DNA of 64,000 nucleotides from Zobellia alginiliquefaciens. GTDB taxonomy: Bacteria > Bacteroidota > Bacteroidia > Flavobacteriales > Flavobacteriaceae. This document shows positions 4,950-19,681 of the stretch, piece by piece. The notes beneath the pieces were generated by a model that saw only the letters and a list, made by a program, of their open reading frames with translations, was not told where the DNA came from and made no database searches. The stretch's first letter is position 1. Each line of letters begins with the position of its first letter. The position numbers and the translations under genes are program-made. The DNA lies in contig NZ_CP119758.1 in assembly GCF_029323795.1 (NCBI RefSeq), positions 3,038,001 to 3,102,000 of the forward strand, given 5' to 3'.

Positions 4950-5062
4950 GACTGTTATCAAGAAAGGTGGAGGGAATAGACCCTTTGAAACCTTGGCAAC
5001 CCTTTTCTTATAAAGAAGGTGCTACATTCTATCCTATGTGTTCATGGGACAGATAACAAAGA
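4950..5062 (+). promoter_or_regulatory. SAM-I (S-box) riboswitch
   Basis: The S-box core is visible in order: TTATCAAGAAAGGTGGAGGGA, the CCCTTTGAAACC segment, TTGGCAACC and AAGGTGCTACATTC, closed by GATAACA. P1 pairs 4953-4959 with 5052-5058 perfectly. It binds S-adenosylmethionine and turns off downstream methionine synthesis genes. A hairpin at about 5065-5081 (GGCAAA with TTTGTCC, one bulge) followed by a T-rich run could be the expression platform terminator; that part is inferred. The aptamer sits about 130 bases before metH. Confidence 0.92.
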
Positions 5063-5191: not shown

Positions 5192-6193
5192 ATGAAAAGT
5201 ATTCAAGAAATATTAAAAGAGCGCATATTGGTGTTAGATGGTGCCATGGGTACTATGCTGCAACGCTATAAATTTACCGAGGAGGATTTTCGCGGTGAGC
5301 GTTTTAAAGATTGGAAATCTCCGGTGCAAGGTAACAATGATTTGTTGTCTTTGACCCAACCCGAAGCCATTGCGGAAGTACATAGAAAATACTTTGCCGC
5401 AGGAGCGGATATTGTAGAAACCAATACGTTTTCCAGTACAACAATTGCCATGGCAGATTACGACATGGAAGAGTTAGTGTATGATTTGAATTTTGAATCC
5501 GCGCGAATTGCTAAAATGGTTGCAGATGAGTTTACGGCCAAAGAGCCAAATAAACCTCGCTTTGTAGTGGGTAGTTTAGGACCTACCAATAAAACGGCAA
5601 GCATGTCTCCCGATGTGAACGACCCTGGGTATAGAGCGGTTTCTTTTGATGAGTTACGAATAGCATACAAACAGCAGGTAGAAGCTTTGTTGGATGGAGG
5701 GGTGGATATGCTAATGGTTGAGACTATTTTTGATACGTTGAACGCCAAAGCGGCATTATTTGCAATAGAAGAAGTAAAGGAAGAGCGTAATATAGATGTC
5801 CCAATAATGGTAAGCGGCACGATTACCGATGCCTCGGGAAGAACTTTATCAGGGCAAACGGCTGAAGCATTTTTAATTTCAGTTTCGCATATTCCAATCT
5901 TTTCGGTTGGTTTTAATTGTGCTTTGGGCGCGGACCAGTTGGTACCTCACTTAGAAGTTTTGTCATCCAAATCAGAACATGCTATTTCTGCTCACCCTAA
6001 TGCCGGTTTGCCAAATGCTTTTGGGGAATACGATGAAACGCCAGAGCAAATGGCGGCACAGATAAAAGAATATGTAGAAAAAGGTCTAGTCAATATCGTT
6101 GGCGGTTGCTGTGGTACTACACCGGAACATATTAAGGCAATTGCAGACTTGGTAAACAAGTATGATCCAAGAGGAATAAACGTGGCATCTTGA
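5192..6193 (+). CDS. metH: Methionine synthase, homocysteine-binding (MetH N-terminal) subunit
   Basis: 333 residues covering only the first domain of cobalamin-dependent methionine synthase. It binds and activates homocysteine through zinc, for which C243, C306 and C307 (in GGCCGTTP) are visible. The N-terminus [10 protein letters not shown] and the [11 protein letters not shown] segment are typical of MetH. The remaining domains are encoded by the next gene, so MetH is split here; 333 plus 912 residues add up to about the length of one-piece MetH. It lies directly under the SAM riboswitch, giving feedback control by the end product. Confidence 0.93.
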
Positions 6194-6257: not shown

Positions 6258-8996
6258 ATGAGTGACAACTCAAATATACTGACAACCAACGACCAACAAC
6301 CAGCAACTAGACATTTAAAACTATCCGGTCTAGAGCCTTTGGTCATCACCCCTGAAAGCAATTTCGTAAATGTGGGCGAACGTACCAATGTAGCTGGATC
6401 TAAACGATTTTTACGACTTATTAAAGAACGTAAGTTCGAAGAAGCCCTAGATGTTGCCAGAGATCAGGTGGAAGGTGGGGCCCAAATCATCGATATTAAT
6501 ATGGATGATGGTTTGATCGATGGTAAAGAAGCCATGGTTAAATTTTTGAACCTTGTTATTGCGGAGCCTGATATTGCCCGTGTGCCTATCATGATAGATA
6601 GTTCCAAATGGGATATTATTGAAGCAGGTCTACAAGTGGTTCAGGGCAAGTGTGTGGTAAACTCCATTAGTTTAAAAGAAGGTAAGGAAGAGTTCGTAAG
6701 ACACGCCAAGCTTATCAAGAGATACGGAGCAGCGGTAATCGTAATGGCTTTTGACGAAGTAGGTCAGGCCGATAATTATGACAGGCGGATAGAAATATCT
6801 AAACGGTCTTATGATATTTTGGTAGACGAAGTAGGTTTTGCGCCCGAGGATATCATTTTTGACCTGAATATATTTCCCGTTGCAACGGGGATGGACGAGC
6901 ACAAACTTAATGCGCTAGATTTTATAAGGGCAACGAAGTGGGTTCGTGAAAATTTACCTCATGCCAGTGTTAGTGGAGGGGTAAGTAATGTTTCTTTTTC
7001 CTTTAGGGGTAATAATCCTGTGCGTGAAGCTATGCATTCCGTCTTTTTGTACCACGCTATAAAAGCGGGTATGAACATGGGAATCGTCAATCCGACCATG
7101 TTGGAGATATATGATGATATTCCAAAGGATTTGTTGGAACATGTTGAGGATGTTATTCTAAACCGTAGAGATGATGCAACGGAACGATTGTTAGATTTTG
7201 CGGAATCCGTTGTGGGTACTGCCAAAGAAAGCAAAGTAGACCTTTCGTGGCGTGAAGAGCCTTTACAAAATAGAATTACGAGAGCTCTTGTAAAGGGAAT
7301 CGATCAATATATAATAGAAGATGTAGAGGAGGCACGTGTCGCGGCAGACAAACCAATTGAGGTCATTGAAGGAAACTTAATGGCCGGTATGAACGTGGTA
7401 GGCGACCTTTTCGGAAGCGGAAAAATGTTTTTGCCGCAGGTAGTGAAATCTGCTCGTGTAATGAAAAAAGCGGTGGCTTATTTACTACCGTACATTGAGG
7501 AAGAGAAGTTGAAAAACCCTCAGATTGGTGACGATAAGGGGAATGGAAAAATATTGATGGCCACCGTAAAAGGTGATGTTCATGATATTGGTAAAAACAT
7601 AGTTAGCGTTGTTCTGGCCTGTAATAATTATGAAATAGTGGACCTTGGGGTTATGGTGCCACCCGAGAAAATTATAGCAGCTGCTATTGAGCACAACGTA
7701 GATGTAATAGGCCTCAGCGGACTTATAACTCCCTCTCTTGATGAGATGGTGCATTTGGCCAAAGAAATGGAGCGTAAGAACTTTAAACTGCCGTTGCTCA
7801 TTGGTGGGGCAACTACTAGTAAAGCTCATACTGCGGTTAAAATTGACCCACAATATAGTGAGGCCGTAGTTCATGTAAATGATGCGTCAAGAGCAGTGAC
7901 AGTGGTTGGTGACTTGCTCCAGAAAGAAACATCGGCCGGGTATAAGAAAGCAATCAAAGAAGACTATGATGTCTTCAGGGATAAGTTCCTGAGCCGAACA
8001 AAAAAGAAGGAGTACAAAACTATAGAAGCTGCAAGAGAGAACCGATTTAAAATTGATTGGGATGCTTCGGAAATCGTAAAGCCTAAGGAGTTAGGTATTC
8101 AGGTTATTGAAGATATTGATTTAGAGAAGTTGGTTCCTTTTATAGATTGGACACCTTTTTTTAGAAGTTGGGAACTGCACGGAAAGTATCCTGATATTTT
8201 AACGGATGAGGTTGTGGGCGAACAAGCAACAGAGCTTTTTGCCGATGCTCAGAAAATGTTGAATGATATTCTAAAGGATAAAAAGTTAACGGGAAAAGGG
8301 GTGTTCGGTATCTTTCCTGCCAATACGCTGGAAAACTATGATGATATAGAGGTTGATGTAGAGGACGGTAATGAAACGAAGAAGTATACGTTTAGAACGT
8401 TACGTCAGCAATTGCAAAGAAGAGAGGGCGTGCCAGATTATGCTTTATCCGATTTTATTGCGCCAAAAGAATCCGGTAAACAGGATTATGTAGGCTGCTT
8501 CTGTGTAACTACAGGTTTCGGAACCGATGAATTGGCGGATACGTATCGTGAAAATTTGGATGATTACAATTCCATTTTGGTAAAAGCTTTAAGTGATCGT
8601 CTGGCCGAAGCTTTTGCAGAGTACCTGCATTTAGAGGTGCGAACAAAGCACTGGGGCTATGCTTCTGATGAGCATTTAGAAAATGATGAATTGATAGATG
8701 AAAAATACAAGGGTATTCGTCCTGCACCTGGGTATCCTGCTTGTCCGGATCATTTAGAAAAGTTAACCCTTTGGGATATGCTAAAGGTGGAGGAGCGTAT
8801 AGGTGTAAAATTAACGGATAGTTTGGCCATGTGGCCCGCCTCATCAGTCTCAGGGTATTACTTTGGTAATGCGGAATCTAGATATTTTGGATTAGGAAAA
8901 ATAAAAGAGGACCAAGTAGAAGACTTTGCTGAGCGCAGAGGCATCACGGTAGAGAAAGCTACAAAATGGTTAGCTCCTAATATTGCCGATGATTGA
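6258..8996 (+). CDS. metH: Methionine synthase, pterin/cobalamin/activation (MetH C-terminal) subunit
   Basis: 912 residues carrying the rest of MetH: the pterin (methyl-THF) binding domain (about 25-300), the helical cobalamin cap (about 330-420), the Rossmann B12 domain and the C-terminal SAM-dependent reactivation domain (about 590-900). The cobalamin motif D440-x-H442-x-x-G is present, H442 being the lower axial ligand. Methyl passes from methyl-THF through cobalamin to homocysteine held by the preceding subunit. The gap to the first subunit is 64 bases. The first ~20 residues after ATG 6258 are low in conservation-like features, so a slightly later start is possible. Confidence 0.93.
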
Positions 8997-12419: not shown

Positions 12420-13796
12420 ATGCATCCCATTAAAAAATATCTAACGAATCTGTTCGCTAAAAAACGTGTTTTAGGTGATAATCCGTCACTAAACGGGTTG
12501 GTGTCTGCAGATACGCTTCTTGCTAATTTGGTTGAAGAGAAAAAAGTCCCAGGTTTGGCAATCACAGTTCTAAAAAAAGGATCGGTTTTTTTTCAAAAAG
12601 GATATGGTTTTGCCAATAGGGAAGAGGGAACACGTGTAAATCCGGAAACCTCGGTTTTTAGAATTGCGAGTGTTTCAAAGCCTATTGCCGCCACTGCTTT
12701 GGCATATATGGTCAATGAAAAGTTGATTGATTTGGATGCTTTTTTTTATACCTATGTACCGTATTATCCCAAGAAAAAATATGATTTCACTATTCGGCAA
12801 TTGGCGAGCCATACCGCTGGAATCCGCGGATATCGTGGTATAGAATATGGCCTTAACAAACCATATTCCATAAAGGAAAGTATCGGTATTTTTAAAGACG
12901 ATGAGCTCCTTTTCGAGCCCGGAACGGATTATCTGTATAACAGTTTTGATTGGGTGCTGATTTCCCTTGCGATGCAAGAAGCAAGTGGAATTGCTTTTGA
13001 AGAATATGTGGAGCAGAAGGTATTGAGGCCTTTAAGAATGGACCATACGTTTTGGCCTGTCTTTAACTGCGCTCAGTCTGGCCTAACTGATGAGTTGGGG
13101 CAAACGCAAATGGCGTTTGAAGAGGAAAAGGAAACATCAGTTCGGGAACAGTCGAGTTCTGATGGAAATACAGGAGCATCAGTTCAAGCACAGTCGAGTT
13201 CTGATGGAAATACAGGAGCATCAGTTCAAGCACAGTCGAGTTCTGATGGATATTCAGGAGCGTCAGTTCGAGCACAGTCGAGTTCTGATGGATATTCAGG
13301 AGCGTCAGTTCGAGCACAGTCGAGTTCTGATGGATATTCAGGAGCGTCAGTTCGAGCGCAGTCGAGAACAAGCGATGTGGTCAAGTTTTACTCCAAGAAC
13401 AAAATAGGTTTTAGGGAAGCTATTCCTGTAGATAATTTTTATAAACTAGCAGGTGGAGGGTTTCTTTCTACAACCAAGGATATTGCTAAATTCGGACAAG
13501 CTTATCTAGAAGGTAAGGTATTGAACAAGGAACTTAGAAAGGAGTTTCTATCGGCGCAAAAGGTCAATGGAGCCTCAGTTTATTACGGTTTGGGCTGGCA
13601 AGTAAGTGAAGATGCAAAAGGAAGACCTTATTTTGGACATGTGGGCAATGGTGTGGGTGGATATTCCAACTTCTTTGTATATCCGGAGGAAAACATGGTT
13701 TTTTCAATATTAACCAATTGCACAGACCCAAAAATTCAGTCCCAACTGGATACAATTATTGATTTACTTATCTCTGCCGATAGTCCAATGGGCTAG
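12420..13796 (+). CDS. LACTB-like serine hydrolase (class C beta-lactamase fold) with minisatellite insert
   Basis: 458 residues of the serine beta-lactamase/PBP-like fold. Nucleophile motif S84-V-S-K87, then ASHTAGIRGY (about 129-138), Y173-N-S in the place of YxN, and H407-V-G in the place of KTG. The SHTAGIR segment and the late FLSTTKDIAKFGQAYL resemble LACTB-type peptidases more than true beta-lactamases. No signal peptide is evident. Residues about 239-317 consist of five 14-residue repeats (S-S-S-D-G-x-x-G-A-S-V-x-A-Q) lying between catalytic motifs, probably a surface loop. Substrate unknown; peptide or ester hydrolysis is the family expectation. Confidence 0.85.
   Translation: MHPIKKYLTNLFAKKRVLGDNPSLNGLVSADTLLANLVEEKKVPGLAITVLKKGSVFFQKGYGFANREEGTRVNPETSVFRIASVSKPIAATALAYMVNEKLIDLDAFFYTYVPYYPKKKYDFTIRQLASHTAGIRGYRGIEYGLNKPYSIKESIGIFKDDELLFEPGTDYLYNSFDWVLISLAMQEASGIAFEEYVEQKVLRPLRMDHTFWPVFNCAQSGLTDELGQTQMAFEEEKETSVREQSSSDGNTGASVQAQSSSDGNTGASVQAQSSSDGYSGASVRAQSSSDGYSGASVRAQSSSDGYSGASVRAQSRTSDVVKFYSKNKIGFREAIPVDNFYKLAGGGFLSTTKDIAKFGQAYLEGKVLNKELRKEFLSAQKVNGASVYYGLGWQVSEDAKGRPYFGHVGNGVGGYSNFFVYPEENMVFSILTNCTDPKIQSQLDTIIDLLISADSPMG
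13134..13370 (+). repeat. In-frame 42-bp tandem repeat inside the serine hydrolase gene
   Basis: Five full 42-bp units (13134, 13176, 13218, 13260, 13302) and a 27-base partial one. Units 2-3 share an AAATACAGGA variant, units 4-5 a TATTCAGGAGCG variant, showing stepwise duplication. Because 42 is divisible by 3, copy-number change keeps the hydrolase frame. Confidence 0.95.
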
Positions 13797-13906: not shown

Positions 13907-14374
13907 ATGAAAAATTTTAAATCAACTTTATTTGCCCTCGGATGCAGTTTTTTTGCATTGACCATGAGTGCACAGGAAATAACTTCTTTCTCGGGAATAT
14001 TCGGCCCGGAATTCTATCAGGACAAACAGAAATTGTCCTGGAAAGAAATTAATAAAATAATGTCCGAAAGCCAAGTTGCTCAGGTAAACTGGCAGAAATC
14101 AAAGAAACAAATGTTGGGAGGAATGGCCGCTGGAGTTGCTAATTTTGGTACTGCAATTTGGTTTTTGGTGAACGAAAATGATGATAAAAGTGTTACGGCA
14201 CCTGCAATTGCCTTTGCCGGAACTGGAATTATTGGTTCAATTTTCTTTCATCATGCTATGAAGAATAAAAAGGAAGCTATTCTGAATTATAATGAAAGCG
14301 TAGGTAACGGAACTTCTTTCCGTATGGTGCCTGCCGTAAATGAAAATGGAGTAGGACTTGCCTTAAAATTTTAG
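13907..14374 (+). CDS. Small exported or membrane protein, unknown
   Basis: 155 residues from ATG 13907; the frame is open further upstream but the MKNFKSTLFALG signal start is the natural one. A signal peptide ends near MSAQ. Two glycine-rich hydrophobic segments (about 80-100 and 110-130) could span the membrane and are separated by a polar NENDDKS turn. I recognise no family. It has a terminator behind it and stands apart from its neighbours. Confidence 0.7.
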   Translation: MKNFKSTLFALGCSFFALTMSAQEITSFSGIFGPEFYQDKQKLSWKEINKIMSESQVAQVNWQKSKKQMLGGMAAGVANFGTAIWFLVNENDDKSVTAPAIAFAGTGIIGSIFFHHAMKNKKEAILNYNESVGNGTSFRMVPAVNENGVGLALKF

Positions 14375-15411: not shown

Positions 15412-15561
15412 GAGCTATTCACTATTTTAATTAAGACAGTAGGTTGTTGAATTCAAAAAATGATCAAGGTCTGATTGAGAGATACATATAAAACGGAAAA
15501 AAAAGTAATCTAAAGGTTTATTTTTAAATTTAATTATTACTTTAGCCGAAGTTTAAGTGTT

Positions 15562-15633
15562 ATGACAAAGCAATTCTTTTTTAACGGTTTTTATTTTTAC
15601 TTCTTTTTTAAGAGAGGTATGGGACTGTTGTAA
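15562..15633 (+). CDS. Phe/Tyr-rich leader peptide of the aromatic operon
   Basis: A 23-codon ORF reading MTKQFFFNGFYFYFFFKRGM then GLL and stop. Eight of its codons are Phe and two are Tyr, all between codons 5 and 16. It is followed by competing RNA hairpins and then pheA. The design is that of E. coli pheL: scarcity of charged tRNA-Phe (or tRNA-Tyr) stalls the ribosome on the run, and plenty lets it reach the stop at 15631. No homologue is claimed; the assignment rests on codon content, position and the hairpins. Confidence 0.88.
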   Translation: MTKQFFFNGFYFYFFFKRGMGLL

Positions 15634-15687
15634 AATATTGCATGATATAAACAAATTTAAGTCCCGTGAAAAACGGGACTTTTTTTG
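15618..15687 (+). promoter_or_regulatory. Transcription attenuator: antiterminator and terminator before pheA
   Basis: Terminator: GTCCCGT (15661-15667), loop GAAAA, ACGGGAC (15673-15679), then seven T. Antiterminator: GGGACT (15621-15626) is the exact complement of AGTCCC (15660-15665), extendable by A-U and G-U pairs to 15618-15626 with 15660-15668, and so takes the 5' arm of the terminator. A ribosome ending at the leader stop (15631-15633) would cover 15618-15626 and favour termination; one stalled on the Phe codons at 15574-15609 would leave it free and favour read-through. Confidence 0.85.
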
Positions 15688-15745: not shown

Positions 15746-16573
15746 ATGAAACTAAAAGTAGCCATTCAGGGAATCAAGGGTTCGAACCATCATCAAGTGG
15801 CTCGGGAATATTTTGACGATAATGTTGAAATGGTAGAGTGTATGTCTTTTGATTTTTTGGTAGATCAACTTTTGACAAAAAAGGCGGACGTTGGCGTAAT
15901 GGCTATTGAGAATTCCATAGCAGGTTCTATAATACCTAATTATGCATTGGTATATCATAAGGATTTACATGTGGTTGGTGAACATTATTTAAATATTCAT
16001 CATCATTTGATGGTGTTAAAAGGGCAGAAAATTTCTGATATTGAAGAAGTTCGCTCACACCCAATGGCACTGTTGCAGTGCAAAGAGTTTTTTGGTAAGT
16101 ATCCGCATATAAAATTGGTGGAAGATGTAGATACGGCGGAGACTGCAAAGCGTATTCAAGATCAACAATTAATGAACATTGCGGCAATAGCACCCGAGGT
16201 TGCGGCCAGTTTATATGATTTGGACATCGTAGCGGACAACATACAGACCATTCAAAATAATGCAACCCGTTTTATTATTGTAAAGACAAAAAATAAAGAG
16301 CTTCCAAAAGCGGAAATAAACAAGGCATCGGTACGGTTTGTAACGGACCATAAACGCGGAAGTCTTGCTGCTGTGCTTAATGTTATGAGTGATTGTAGAT
16401 TGAATTTAACCAAAATACAATCCTTGCCCATAATAGAGACCCCTTGGAAATATGCCTTTTTTGTGGATGTTACTTTTCCTGATTACATCAATTTTGATAA
16501 GGCAAAATCACTGTTGAACATCATGGCGGAGGATTTTAAGGTGTTGGGTGAATATAAAAATGCTAGAATATGA
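15746..16573 (+). CDS. pheA: Prephenate dehydratase
   Basis: 275 residues from ATG 15746; the frame runs upstream through the terminator but that part is the leader region. It converts prephenate to phenylpyruvate. The catalytic domain shows AIENSIAGSI near residue 55 and the TRF motif in NNATRFIIV near residue 175. A C-terminal ACT domain (SVRFVTDHKRGSLAAVL onward) is the usual Phe-binding feedback site. No chorismate mutase domain is attached; that activity is in the last gene of the operon. Its stop overlaps the next start by 4 bases. Confidence 0.93.
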   Translation: MKLKVAIQGIKGSNHHQVAREYFDDNVEMVECMSFDFLVDQLLTKKADVGVMAIENSIAGSIIPNYALVYHKDLHVVGEHYLNIHHHLMVLKGQKISDIEEVRSHPMALLQCKEFFGKYPHIKLVEDVDTAETAKRIQDQQLMNIAAIAPEVAASLYDLDIVADNIQTIQNNATRFIIVKTKNKELPKAEINKASVRFVTDHKRGSLAAVLNVMSDCRLNLTKIQSLPIIETPWKYAFFVDVTFPDYINFDKAKSLLNIMAEDFKVLGEYKNARI

Positions 16574-17715
16574 TACGAACGGCAAATCGTTTACATACAG
16601 TTGAAGAATATTACTTCTCAAAGAAGCTTAGGGAAGTACGTGGTTTGATGGCCGAAGGGAGACCAATTATCAATATGGGTATTGGTAGTCCGGATTTGGC
16701 ACCATCTGAAGCGATAATTAAAAGCATGCAAGAAGCAGTTTTGGAAGCCGGCGCGCACCAGTATCAAAGTTATCAGGGTTTGCCGGAATTGCGTGAGGCC
16801 GTAGCTGATTTTTACAGTCTAAAATTTGGGGTTGTACTAGATGCCTCAAGTGAGATTTTACCATTGATGGGGTCAAAAGAAGGTATCATGCATATAAGTA
16901 TGGCTTTTTTGAATGAGGGAGATGTAGCTTTGATTCCTAATCCAGGGTATCCCACGTATACTTCGGTTACGAAATTGGTAGGAGCGGAAGCTAAATATTA
17001 TAACCTAACGGCAGAAAGTGGATGGTTTCCGGATTTGGAAGAACTACAAGAGCATGATCTATCGAAAGTAAAAATCATGTGGACGAGTTATCCGCACATG
17101 CCAACAGGAGCAAAGGCTACCAAAGCCCAGTTTGAAAAGTTGATCGCTTTTGCCAAAAAGAATGATATTCTTTTGGTTAACGATAACCCGTACAGTTTTG
17201 TACTTAATAATTCTCCATCAAGCATTTTGTCCATAGATGGGGCAAAAGATGTTGCCTTAGAATTGAATTCATTGAGCAAGACCTTTAATATGGCAGGTTG
17301 GCGTGTAGGCATGGTCCTAGGTGGTACGGATCATATTAATGCTATCCTTAAAGTGAAGAGCAATATGGATTCAGGAATGTTCTACGGAATCCAAAAAGGA
17401 GCCATTGAAGCCCTAAAAAGCGGTCAGGAGTGGTTTGATAAGTTGAATGAGGTATATAGTACTAGAAGGGCATTGATGTATCAATTAGCGGACAAGTTGA
17501 ATTGTACGTATGATACAGATGCCGTAGGAATGTTCGTTTGGGCCAAACTGCCCGAAGGAAGTAAGTCCGCAGAAGAATTCATAGACGAGGTGTTGTACGA
17601 TAAGAATCTTTTCATAACACCGGGAACCATTTTTGGAAGTAATGGCGAAGGGTATATTAGATTTTCGCTATGCGTTACGGAGGATAAAATTAAGGAAGCA
17701 ATTAGTCGGTTTTAG
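16570..17715 (+). CDS. Class I/II PLP aminotransferase, probably aromatic amino acid
   Basis: 381 residues of aminotransferase fold type I. The Schiff-base lysine is K237 (NSLSKTFNMAGWRVG), the PLP-phosphate region GSKEGIMH near residue 101, and the substrate Arg is likely in YIRFSLC near the end. The usual NPNNPTG motif reads YPHMPTG, so the conserved Asn that touches the PLP ring oxygen is Met. By position between pheA and tyrA it probably transaminates phenylpyruvate and hydroxyphenylpyruvate; substrate is inferred from the operon. It overlaps pheA by 4 bases, a translationally coupled arrangement. Confidence 0.88.
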   Translation: MIRTANRLHTVEEYYFSKKLREVRGLMAEGRPIINMGIGSPDLAPSEAIIKSMQEAVLEAGAHQYQSYQGLPELREAVADFYSLKFGVVLDASSEILPLMGSKEGIMHISMAFLNEGDVALIPNPGYPTYTSVTKLVGAEAKYYNLTAESGWFPDLEELQEHDLSKVKIMWTSYPHMPTGAKATKAQFEKLIAFAKKNDILLVNDNPYSFVLNNSPSSILSIDGAKDVALELNSLSKTFNMAGWRVGMVLGGTDHINAILKVKSNMDSGMFYGIQKGAIEALKSGQEWFDKLNEVYSTRRALMYQLADKLNCTYDTDAVGMFVWAKLPEGSKSAEEFIDEVLYDKNLFITPGTIFGSNGEGYIRFSLCVTEDKIKEAISRF

Positions 17716-17738: not shown

Positions 17739-18599
17739 ATGAATGTTTTTATAATTGGAGTAGGGTTAATAGGTGGTTCCTTTGCGAAGGACATTAAACG
17801 TCTACGTCCAGAATGCAAAATTTACGGAGTAGATACGAGCGATTCACATTTGAGCGAGGCCTTAAGTTTGGGTTTTATTGATGTCGCATCTAGTTACGCT
17901 GATCTGCCCATTGCCGATATGGTGATTGTGACTATTCCGGTGGGAGTGATGGTTACGGAGCTTCCAAAGATATTGGATGCCGTTAATGATGATTGCGTAG
18001 TTTTTGATGGTGGATCTACCAAGAGTTTAATTTGTAAAACCTTGGATGCCCATCCAAAGCGAAGAAATTATTTGGCAGCACACCCCATTGCAGGTACTGA
18101 ATTTTCAGGCCCGTCTGCAGCAATAGAAAATTTGTATGCAGGAAAGACCAATATTATCTGTGAAGTTGAGAAGACAGCTTTTAAGCTACAGGAAAGAGCA
18201 TTAGAGCTTTTTCAACAGATAGGAATGCGCATAAGGTACATGAACCCTGAAGCACATGACAAACACATTGCATACGTGTCGCATTTGTCACATATCAGCG
18301 CTTTTATGTTGGGAAAGACCGTAATCGATAAAGAGAAAAATGAACGTGATATTTTTGACATGGCGGGCAGTGGTTTTGAAAGTACGGTTAGGCTAGCAAA
18401 GAGTTCTCCGGCCATGTGGACACCCATTTTTGAACAGAATAAAGAGAATGTGGTCGAGACATTGACCGAATATATACAGAACCTTCAGGAGTTTAAACAA
18501 CTGTTGGAAAAAGGAGATTACACGGGAATTTTTAACGAAATGAACGACACAAATAAAATAAAGGAAATTTTAAACGGAATACCACTAAACAAGAAGTAA
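17739..18599 (+). CDS. tyrA: Prephenate dehydrogenase
   Basis: 286 residues. NAD(P)-binding GVGLIGGS at residues 7-14, then AAHPIAGTEFSGP (about 109-121) and the SHLSHISAFML substrate helix typical of TyrA. It oxidatively decarboxylates prephenate to 4-hydroxyphenylpyruvate for tyrosine. There is no ACT domain, so feedback control probably acts at transcription or at the DAHP synthase. The stop codon shares its last A with the ATG of the next gene. Confidence 0.93.
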   Translation: MNVFIIGVGLIGGSFAKDIKRLRPECKIYGVDTSDSHLSEALSLGFIDVASSYADLPIADMVIVTIPVGVMVTELPKILDAVNDDCVVFDGGSTKSLICKTLDAHPKRRNYLAAHPIAGTEFSGPSAAIENLYAGKTNIICEVEKTAFKLQERALELFQQIGMRIRYMNPEAHDKHIAYVSHLSHISAFMLGKTVIDKEKNERDIFDMAGSGFESTVRLAKSSPAMWTPIFEQNKENVVETLTEYIQNLQEFKQLLEKGDYTGIFNEMNDTNKIKEILNGIPLNKK

Positions 18600-19681
18600 T
18601 GGAGAATTCAAAAGAAATGAGAACATGGTTGGATGATATGGGTTTAGACCATCCACTAGTAATAGCAGGGCCATGTAGTGCTGAAACCGAAGAACAAGTG
18701 TTGCGTATTGCTCACGAGTTAAAAGATACCGACGTAAATTACTACCGTGCGGGTATCTGGAAACCAAGAACACGACCAGGAAACTTTGAAGGTGTTGGCG
18801 CACTTGGTTTAAAGTGGTTACAAAAGGTAAAGGCGGAAACCGGTTTAAAGACTGCTACAGAGGTAGCGAACCGTGCACACGTTGAGTTAGCGTTGGAACA
18901 TGATGTAGATTTATTGTGGATCGGTGCACGTTCAACGGTTAGTCCGTTTATCATGCAAGAACTGGCAGATGCCTTAGAAGGTACAGACAAAATTGTATTG
19001 GTGAAAAACCCGGTAAACCCGGATCTAGCTTTATGGTTAGGTGGTATTGAGCGTTTGCATACGGCCGGAATCAGAAAATTGGGAGCTATTCATAGAGGTT
19101 TCTCTACGTATGAGAAAACAAAGTACAGAAACATTCCAGAATGGCAGTTGGCTATTGAGTTCCAAAACAAGTTCCCAGATTTGCCATTGATCAACGATCC
19201 ATCTCACATTACAGGTAAGCGTGATATGATTTTTGATGTATCTCAAACGGCACTTGATCTAAACTTTGACGGTTTAATGATCGAGACTCATTATGATCCA
19301 GACAATGCATGGAGTGATGCTGCTCAGCAGGTTACACCAGAGAAATTGGTGCAAATCATGAGAGACTTAAAAATCAGGAAAGAATCTGATAGCGAAGCAG
19401 AATACAATGCCAAATTGAGCAACTTAAGAGCGCAGATAGATATTCTAGACAATCAGTTGATCGAGACTATGGGTAAGCGTATGAAAGTTTCCGATGGTAT
19501 TGGCGAGTTGAAAAAACAAAAGAACGTTGCCGTTCTTCAGTCCAACCGTTGGAACCAAATCCTTGGAGCTATGATTCTTGAAGGAGAATCAAAAGGTTTG
19601 AGTGAAGAATTTGTTCTTAAAATGTTCAAGGCTATTCACCAAGAGTCCATCAATCACCAAGAGAAGATTGTAAACGCATAA
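18599..19681 (+). CDS. Bifunctional DAHP synthase / chorismate mutase
   Basis: 360 residues. Residues ~1-265 are a type I-beta DAHP synthase (IAGPCSAETEEQ near 23, KPRTRPGNFEG near 56, NDPSHITGKRD near 200), the first step of the shikimate pathway. Residues ~280-360 form an AroQ-class chorismate mutase (LRAQIDILDNQLIETMGKRM onward). In this order, C-terminal mutase, the mutase domain often serves both catalysis and allosteric control. Having first-step and branch-point activities behind the leader means the attenuator controls entry and branch together. A strong terminator follows. Confidence 0.93.
   Translation: MENSKEMRTWLDDMGLDHPLVIAGPCSAETEEQVLRIAHELKDTDVNYYRAGIWKPRTRPGNFEGVGALGLKWLQKVKAETGLKTATEVANRAHVELALEHDVDLLWIGARSTVSPFIMQELADALEGTDKIVLVKNPVNPDLALWLGGIERLHTAGIRKLGAIHRGFSTYEKTKYRNIPEWQLAIEFQNKFPDLPLINDPSHITGKRDMIFDVSQTALDLNFDGLMIETHYDPDNAWSDAAQQVTPEKLVQIMRDLKIRKESDSEAEYNAKLSNLRAQIDILDNQLIETMGKRMKVSDGIGELKKQKNVAVLQSNRWNQILGAMILEGESKGLSEEFVLKMFKAIHQESINHQEKIVNA

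Follow-up and report, generated by a model that had tools for sequence, protein, structure and literature searches.

The window analysed here is the whole stretch of 64,000 nucleotides from the Zobellia alginiliquefaciens genome (one contig, 5.07 Mb). Its plus strand carries a four-gene operon of aromatic amino acid synthesis, preceded by a short open reading frame (ORF) and a hairpin with a T-run (Table 1). A first-pass annotation made from the sequence alone had named the four genes as pheA, aminotransferase, tyrA, and DAHP synthase/chorismate mutase, and profile searches matched all of them. The curated cut-off was passed by tyrA alone, the other three genes being strong matches below the equivalog cut-offs. 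The product of the second gene is probably an aromatic aminotransferase, a role suggested by the operon context. As for the DAHP synthase of the operon, it is the only one found in the genome: the other PF00793 match is a KDO-8-P synthase, and a profile search of the window genome gave no match to PF01474.

Table 1. Coordinates of the leader elements and operon genes in the window
Feature	Coordinates	Strand	Evidence
Probable -7 box TACTTTAG	15538..15545	+	conserved alignment columns across 80 loci
Leader peptide ORF, 23 codons, MTKQFFFNGFYFYFFFKRGMGLL	15562..15633	+	sequence and ORF list
Region 1, predicted to pair with 15621-15630 and so hold region 2 if the leader is untranslated	15582..15591	+	minimum-energy fold
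Region 2, antiterminator 5' half TATGGGACT, within the last leader codons	15618..15626	+	
Intrinsic terminator hairpin (regions 3:4), perfect 9 bp, loop GAAAA	15659..15681	+	AAGTCCCGT/ACGGGACTT
Region 3, antiterminator 3' half, overlaps terminator 5' arm	15660..15668	+	
Terminator T-run	15680..15686	+	sequence
pheA, prephenate dehydratase	15746..16573	+	NCBIfam PRK11898 2.2e-56, below cut-off
Class I aminotransferase	16570..17715	+	best match LL-diaminopimelate aminotransferase subfamily
tyrA, prephenate dehydrogenase	17739..18599	+	NCBIfam PRK08507 8.8e-115, above cut-off
DAHP synthase fused to chorismate mutase	18599..19681	+	profile match

The leader ORF had been described as having 23 codons with eight Phe and two Tyr among them, and both the sequence and the ORF list bear this out; its translation contains no Trp, and the aromatic codons occupy positions 15574-15609. 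The same annotation had placed a perfect 7-bp hairpin with a T-run 27 bases behind the ORF. The hairpin and the T-run were recovered, but the stem has nine base pairs, and 25 nt separate it from the stop codon. The hexamers GGGACT (15621-15626) and AGTCCC (15660-15665) are exact reverse complements, as had been reported, and the antiterminator extends further than was claimed, to nine contiguous pairs including two G-U (15618-15626 with 15660-15668). An intrinsic terminator is present between the leader ORF and the first structural gene, together with an alternative antiterminator that uses the same 5' arm and would exclude it.

According to the folding analysis, a 139-nt stretch covering this region has a minimum energy of -38.3 kcal/mol (z = -4.81), and none of 200 shuffled sequences folded as well. 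In isolation, the terminator and antiterminator have energies of -14.6 and -12.6 kcal/mol, respectively, and the leader folded on region 2 (15562-15640 alone) reaches -15.2 kcal/mol. Across the 124 family genomes with a complete leader, the computed stability of the terminator exceeds that of the antiterminator segment in only 52. Pairing between regions 1 and 2 was 0.89 in the window and averaged 0.73 in the family, versus 0.49 when the upstream part was shuffled, and it exceeded all 10 shuffles in only 33 of the 124 genomes. A protector hairpin formed by regions 1 and 2, which would lead to termination when the leader is untranslated, is plausible, with moderate family-wide support.

Upstream of the leader start, within at most 60 nt, the motif TA[CGT]NTT[AT]G occurs in 111 of 124 family genomes versus 162 of 2480 shuffled windows; in these 111 genomes, the median distance from the beginning of the TACTTTAG-like -7 box to the leader start is 25 nt. 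Since the flavobacterial sigma-A box given in the main text of PMC9723704, TAnnTTTG, sits at -12 to -5, transcription would start near 15550.

Conservation of the leader and of its two helices

The family sample comprised 149 Flavobacteriaceae genomes from 148 genera, of which 130 have a pheA match at E <= 1e-20; the counts rest on these 130, the other 19 having no match at that threshold. Their pheA upstream regions were scanned for a Phe/Tyr/Trp-rich ORF near a terminator, and a leader with a terminator precedes pheA in 125 of the 130. This number is the result of one exchange: the scan had also named 125, among which G080 was spurious and was dropped, and G048, clipped by a contig end, was added by eye. 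G130, where the wrong ORF had been taken, and G122, which has a short arm, were kept as the region was correct. The element is absent from five of the 130 upstream regions (G080, G013, G023, G035, and G128). Strict criteria were passed by 122 of the 130 real regions and by none of 650 dinucleotide shuffles, loose criteria by 125 and nine, respectively.

In a separate scan of named relatives, the leader and the terminator were each present in 80 of 80 loci, so that the conserved short ORF that the first-pass annotation had proposed to look for is found in both sets. All four operon genes stand in the same order in 76 of the 80 named loci, with fewer seen in the other four, and five of the 80 have less than 4 kb of sequence beyond the pheA start. 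The gap between stop codon and terminator has a median of 24 nt. The PheA protein of the window shares 90-96% identity with its counterparts in five Zobellia genomes. Judged from these scans, the attenuator element appears to be the rule before pheA in Flavobacteriaceae and nearly universal there.

The 72 of the 80 named leaders that have exactly 23 aa were compared codon by codon. The entropy summed over codons 2-16 was 3.38, 7.58, and 11.05 bits for the first, second, and third codon positions, respectively. Leader positions 6, 12, 14, and 15 are Phe in all 72 leaders and position 10 in 71; at the all-Phe positions both TTT and TTC are used, with the exception of position 14, which is TTC throughout. 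In the 124 complete leaders of the family, Phe is encoded by TTT 451 times and by TTC 211 times. The leader ORF thus resembles a genuine coding sequence, whose relatives show synonymous change while the aromatic codons are kept, and the codon signature of these 72 aligned leaders is that of a short ORF, predicted to be translated, rich in codons for the end products of the operon. In codons 20-22, the site of region 2, the third positions are constrained too, as expected if RNA pairing holds that stretch.

Changes on both sides of the helices, proposed as a further check by the first-pass annotation, were found in both stems, modestly for the antiterminator when a single clade is considered. 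In an alignment of 124 sequences, all eight terminator pairs analysed show both-side changes, with 82 both-side cells versus 18.3 in shuffles (none of 500 as high), although the hairpins of this set come from a scan that required a stem and their pairing is therefore partly due to selection; the eighth pair fails in 84 of the 124 sequences. A nearer-clade set of 77 distinct sequences was chosen by the leader ORF and not by the hairpin. There, the terminator is 97.5% paired and has 34 both-side cells versus 5.1 in shuffles, again with none of 500 as high.

The antiterminator in the same 77 sequences is 90.7% paired, versus at most 51.0% when one strand is slid along the other, and has 15 both-side cells versus 8.0 in shuffles (0 of 500). 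Other measures were weaker: shuffles did as well in 41 of 500 cases for the percentage paired, 61 for further pair types, 15 for the covariation score, and 10 for the number of pairs with a both-side change. Sliding by one column gave more both-side cells (19), yet only 46.4% pairing. The outermost pair fails in 39 of the 77 sequences, and the nearer clade varies little at region 2.

For the antiterminator, an 81-sequence alignment (A2) and a register-free swap test took the place of the 124-sequence alignment (A1), in which MAFFT had misplaced region 2 by one column between two clades. The register error arose because region 2 stands in different codon phases in the two large clades, ACG-GGA-CTG in one and AAC-GAG-ACG in the other. 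In columns 38-45 of A1, region 2 differs in codon phase between the clades and still pairs with the terminator arm in both. The alignment implies that an insertion or deletion within the leader displaced the RNA element relative to the reading frame, and the difference in phase points to the RNA, not the peptide, as the conserved entity at this place.

In the swap test, the end of each leader in the whole family was scored against the terminator arm of its own genome and against those of the other genomes. Own arms scored 17.1 versus a mean of 13.6 for foreign arms and 14.1 for the highest of 60 permutations, figures that, like those for covariation, are not probabilities, related genomes not being independent. 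The aromatic-codon stretch of the leader scored 9.5 against the arm. The own arm exceeded the median foreign arm in 107 of 124 genomes, with 14 ties. Matching sets of region 2 and arm include CGGGACT/AGTCCCG, CGAGACT/AGTCTCG, CCGGGTT/AACCCGG, CCGGGAT/ATCCCGG, and GCGAGGCTTT/AAAGCCTCGT. The best contiguous antiterminator has at least 6 bp in 107 of the 124 genomes and at least 5 bp in 123, with 17 below 6 bp.

Proposed attenuation and the amino acids that may be read

The position of the ribosome relative to the antiterminator was assessed with assumed footprint sizes, the leading edge being placed 12 nt beyond the first base of the codon in the A site. The entire leader and spacer were searched for the best partner of the terminator 5' arm. 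Stalling at the last aromatic codon would leave 5 nt or more of this partner free, and a ribosome at the stop codon would cover its start, in 116 of 124 genomes; the same geometry occurred in 696 of 2480 shuffled leaders. When the search was confined to the vicinity of the stop codon, the counts were 120 and 121 of 124, partly so by construction. With the assumed footprint edges, region 2 is thus placed so that it would be free on stalling and covered at the stop.

The conservation of the element, the synonymous codon change, the compensatory changes in the helices, and the fitting geometry together make it very probable that a classical ribosome-mediated transcription attenuator precedes the pheA operon, which agrees with what the first-pass annotation had proposed. 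From the observed anatomy, conservation, coding signature, compensatory changes, and geometry, the following course of events may be inferred. RNA polymerase would start near 15550 and a ribosome would follow on the leader ORF. With plentiful charged Phe-tRNA and Tyr-tRNA, the ribosome would reach the stop codon and cover region 2, the terminator would form, and transcription would end before pheA. If charged tRNA is short, the ribosome would stall in the aromatic codons and disrupt region 1; region 2, thereby freed, would pair with region 3 and the terminator would be prevented, so that pheA, the aminotransferase gene, tyrA, and the DAHP synthase/chorismate mutase gene would be transcribed.

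Two other origins of the structure were weighed against attenuation. The terminator might be controlled by an RNA element that binds a metabolite or a protein, in which case the ORF would be incidental; such elements do exist in this genome, for example, the SAM riboswitch at 4952-5059. At gathering score, however, only SAM and tRNA families were matched in the window and none of them covers the leader element, and in 20 scanned loci, 18 of them with the leader, no family reaches its gathering score at the leader. The closest candidate, Phe_leader (RF01859), gave 28.4 bits in a permissive scan of 311 bases (E 0.0066), below its gathering score of 55. Bacteroid-trp (RF01692, gathering score 49 bits) had no match in the window, and a T-box leader was rejected as no Rfam T-box matched at gathering score in the window scan. 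Moreover, conservation follows the codons, the third positions varying most in codons 2-16 and being constrained at region 2, so that this explanation is very improbable. The Rfam copy tested contains no family for the leader element, which is thus a candidate for a new one.

It might also be supposed that AT-rich intergenic DNA yields Phe/Tyr-rich ORFs by chance and that the hairpin is an ordinary terminator. The region is indeed AT-rich, and a few shuffles passed the loose criteria (9 of 650). The strict criteria nevertheless separate 122 of 130 real regions from zero of 650 shuffles. Also against this view, the neighbouring gldA lies on the minus strand and is transcribed away from the leader, and the nearest upstream ORF of at least 80 aa on the plus strand stops at 14374. 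A chance origin is refuted by the conservation, and its probability is negligible.

As for the amino acids to which the putative attenuator would respond, the mixture of Phe and Tyr codons noted at first is more pronounced than was claimed: both occur in all 124 complete leaders, and Trp is present too in 84 of them, with totals of 662 Phe, 440 Tyr, and 85 Trp codons. The leader was taken as the ATG ORF with the most Phe, Tyr, and Trp, and more than one ORF competed in only five of the 124 cases. Among the 72 aligned leaders, Tyr is the majority residue at positions 5, 11, and 13 (64, 57, and 63 leaders, respectively), and position 7 is mixed (36 Trp, 19 Tyr, and 17 Phe). This mixed aromatic composition is the most interesting and unusual feature of the pheA attenuator and raises the question of whether one leader can report several amino acids. 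The leader may do so; as no DAHP synthase other than that of the operon was found in the genome, it would make sense for more than one aromatic amino acid to be reported.

A tentative reading, which we rate slightly below an even chance, is that the leader is an integrating sensor, ancient and widespread in Bacteroidota, that acts on a branched pathway like an OR gate and opens the operon whenever any one of the aromatic amino acids is scarce; it would read Phe and Tyr, joined by Trp in roughly two thirds of the genomes of the family sample. Were this so, the operon opened would be the one that holds the only entry enzyme of the pathway, Trp would be sensed twice, here and at the trp leader, with the Zobellia window lacking the Trp input, and the RNA element would have been kept while codon phase and bases changed.

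Alternatively, the leader might report phenylalanine only, the Tyr and Trp codons being by-products of easy mutation from TTT/TTC to TAT/TAC in a U-rich stretch. Phe is the commonest residue in the 124 leaders, the positions that are fixed or almost fixed in the 72 aligned leaders (6, 12, 14, 15, and 10) are all Phe while position 7 varies, and in these leaders it is Phe codons that lie closest to region 2, the place at which a stall would be expected to have the greatest effect. This explanation accounts poorly for Tyr in every leader, for its majority at three positions, and for Trp in 84 of 124 leaders, which needs TGG; Tyr is, besides, a product of the operon, to which the one DAHP synthase found in the genome belongs, and E. 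coli pheL has neither Tyr nor Trp. A Phe-only leader is therefore regarded as rather unlikely, less so by far than the two origins discussed above.

Related systems and other elements of the genome

The pheL leader of E. coli, with its established choice between antiterminator and terminator, is one of the closest known counterparts. Like E. coli pheL-pheA (RF01859), the leader described here is a short Phe-rich ORF before pheA, for which the same choice of structures is predicted. It differs in that pheL, as read from strain K-12, contains Phe only, whereas Phe and Tyr are present in all the complete leaders studied here and Trp in most; the operon, in addition to pheA, includes the aminotransferase, tyrA, and DAHP synthase/chorismate mutase genes; and the RF01859 model scores the window leader well below its gathering threshold. 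Vitreschak et al. (2004, FEMS Microbiol Lett) are said to have predicted some attenuators in Bacteroidetes/Chlorobi.

Attenuators in Bacteroidota, including one before a pheA operon, are already in print, and the kind is known from E. coli pheL. Table 7 of PMC1173090 (2005) lists, with an entry taken from Merino's database, a putative attenuator upstream of the Bacteroides thetaiotaomicron genes pheA > hisHb > aroAIbeta-aroQ > tyrA. The phylum is the same and the operon nearly so; the table entry gives neither leader peptide nor codons. Strong clues for leader-peptide attenuation before amino acid operons were reported for Flavobacterium psychrophilum, of the same family as Zobellia, in PMC9723704 (2021), whose passages on this subject leave the operons unnamed and whose main text lacks the word phenylalanine; the pheA operon may be among those of its Table S7. 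PMC2864571 lists the Bacteroid-trp RNA (RF01692), a cis-regulatory RNA of Bacteroidetes, which PMC6414381, for F. psychrophilum, compares with the trp leader of E. coli; it belongs to another operon and another amino acid, and the pheA leader gave no match to it. PMC7366714 mentions short ORFs resembling leader peptides in B. thetaiotaomicron. Fig. 6b of PMC6429828 presents two candidate upstream ORFs with Phe and Tyr codons, similar to the leader described here in being short mixed Phe/Tyr ORFs associated with shikimate metabolism genes; they come from the five genomes of that study and are not placed in Bacteroidota in the figure. Among the literature matches listed, none describes this pheA leader, supplements and most subscription journals lying outside the reach of the search.

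Beyond the family, a pheA match was present in 99 of 196 genomes of the order, 52 of 198 of the class, and 128 of 148 of the phylum, of which only a part was examined. An ORF with at least five aromatic residues near a called terminator was found in 23 of 38 upstream regions, 37 of these regions being from other families and one more from Flavobacteriaceae. With a cut-off of six aromatic residues, 13 of 33 further regions of the same class passed, some weakly, and in three more of the 33 (G591, G533, and G497) a leader is obvious and no terminator was called. In other classes of the phylum, one of 21 regions passed, to which G456 and G397, already counted in the 23 mentioned above, may be added. 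The element was absent from all seven regions of a family whose PheA is mostly divergent (f5). In a family with 600-kb genomes (f16), the pheA match is kept and neither of two upstream regions has the leader and terminator; to guess from their reduced size, these genomes may be those of endosymbionts, in which such an absence would not be surprising. The scans thus indicate that the element is widespread in the class and not universal.

In Flavobacteriaceae, the aromatic operon is probably controlled, as a rule, by classical coupled attenuation, a mechanism known above all from Proteobacteria, and attenuation of the pheA type appears to occur in other Bacteroidia, a large and under-studied group of sea, soil, and gut. 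Such an attenuator would serve as a natural reporter with which the coupling of transcription to translation could be tested in Bacteroidota.

In the window genome, leaders of the same build were recognized by eye before trpE (MNRNNTNTWWWNNSRQIS, with WWW), hisG (MKNRNTHHHIYTGSQAR, with HHH), and ilvD (MKTNTRINMVVKVILERE, with VVKVIL), each followed by a hairpin before the gene. The trpE leader is the Bacteroid-trp RNA of Rfam (51 bits, the one match listed in the genome), and the hisG and ilvD leader loci gave no Rfam match at gathering score. Given these similar leaders, attenuation looks like a general habit of the genome.

Two further elements were observed in the window. A SAM-I riboswitch (RF00162, 81.4 bits; 4952-5059, plus strand) lies upstream of ORFs 5192-6193 and 6258-8996, which encode, respectively, a protein with a homocysteine S-methyltransferase domain and one with pterin-binding, B12-binding, and activation domains; by its domain content, this pair appears to be a methionine synthase split into two genes. 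In addition, a 42-bp repeat (13135-13366, plus strand; 5.5 copies, 95% matches) is located inside ORF 12420-13796, which encodes a beta-lactamase-fold protein (PF00144). The repeat is read in frame as 14 residues, and a change in copy number keeps the frame since 42 is a multiple of 3.
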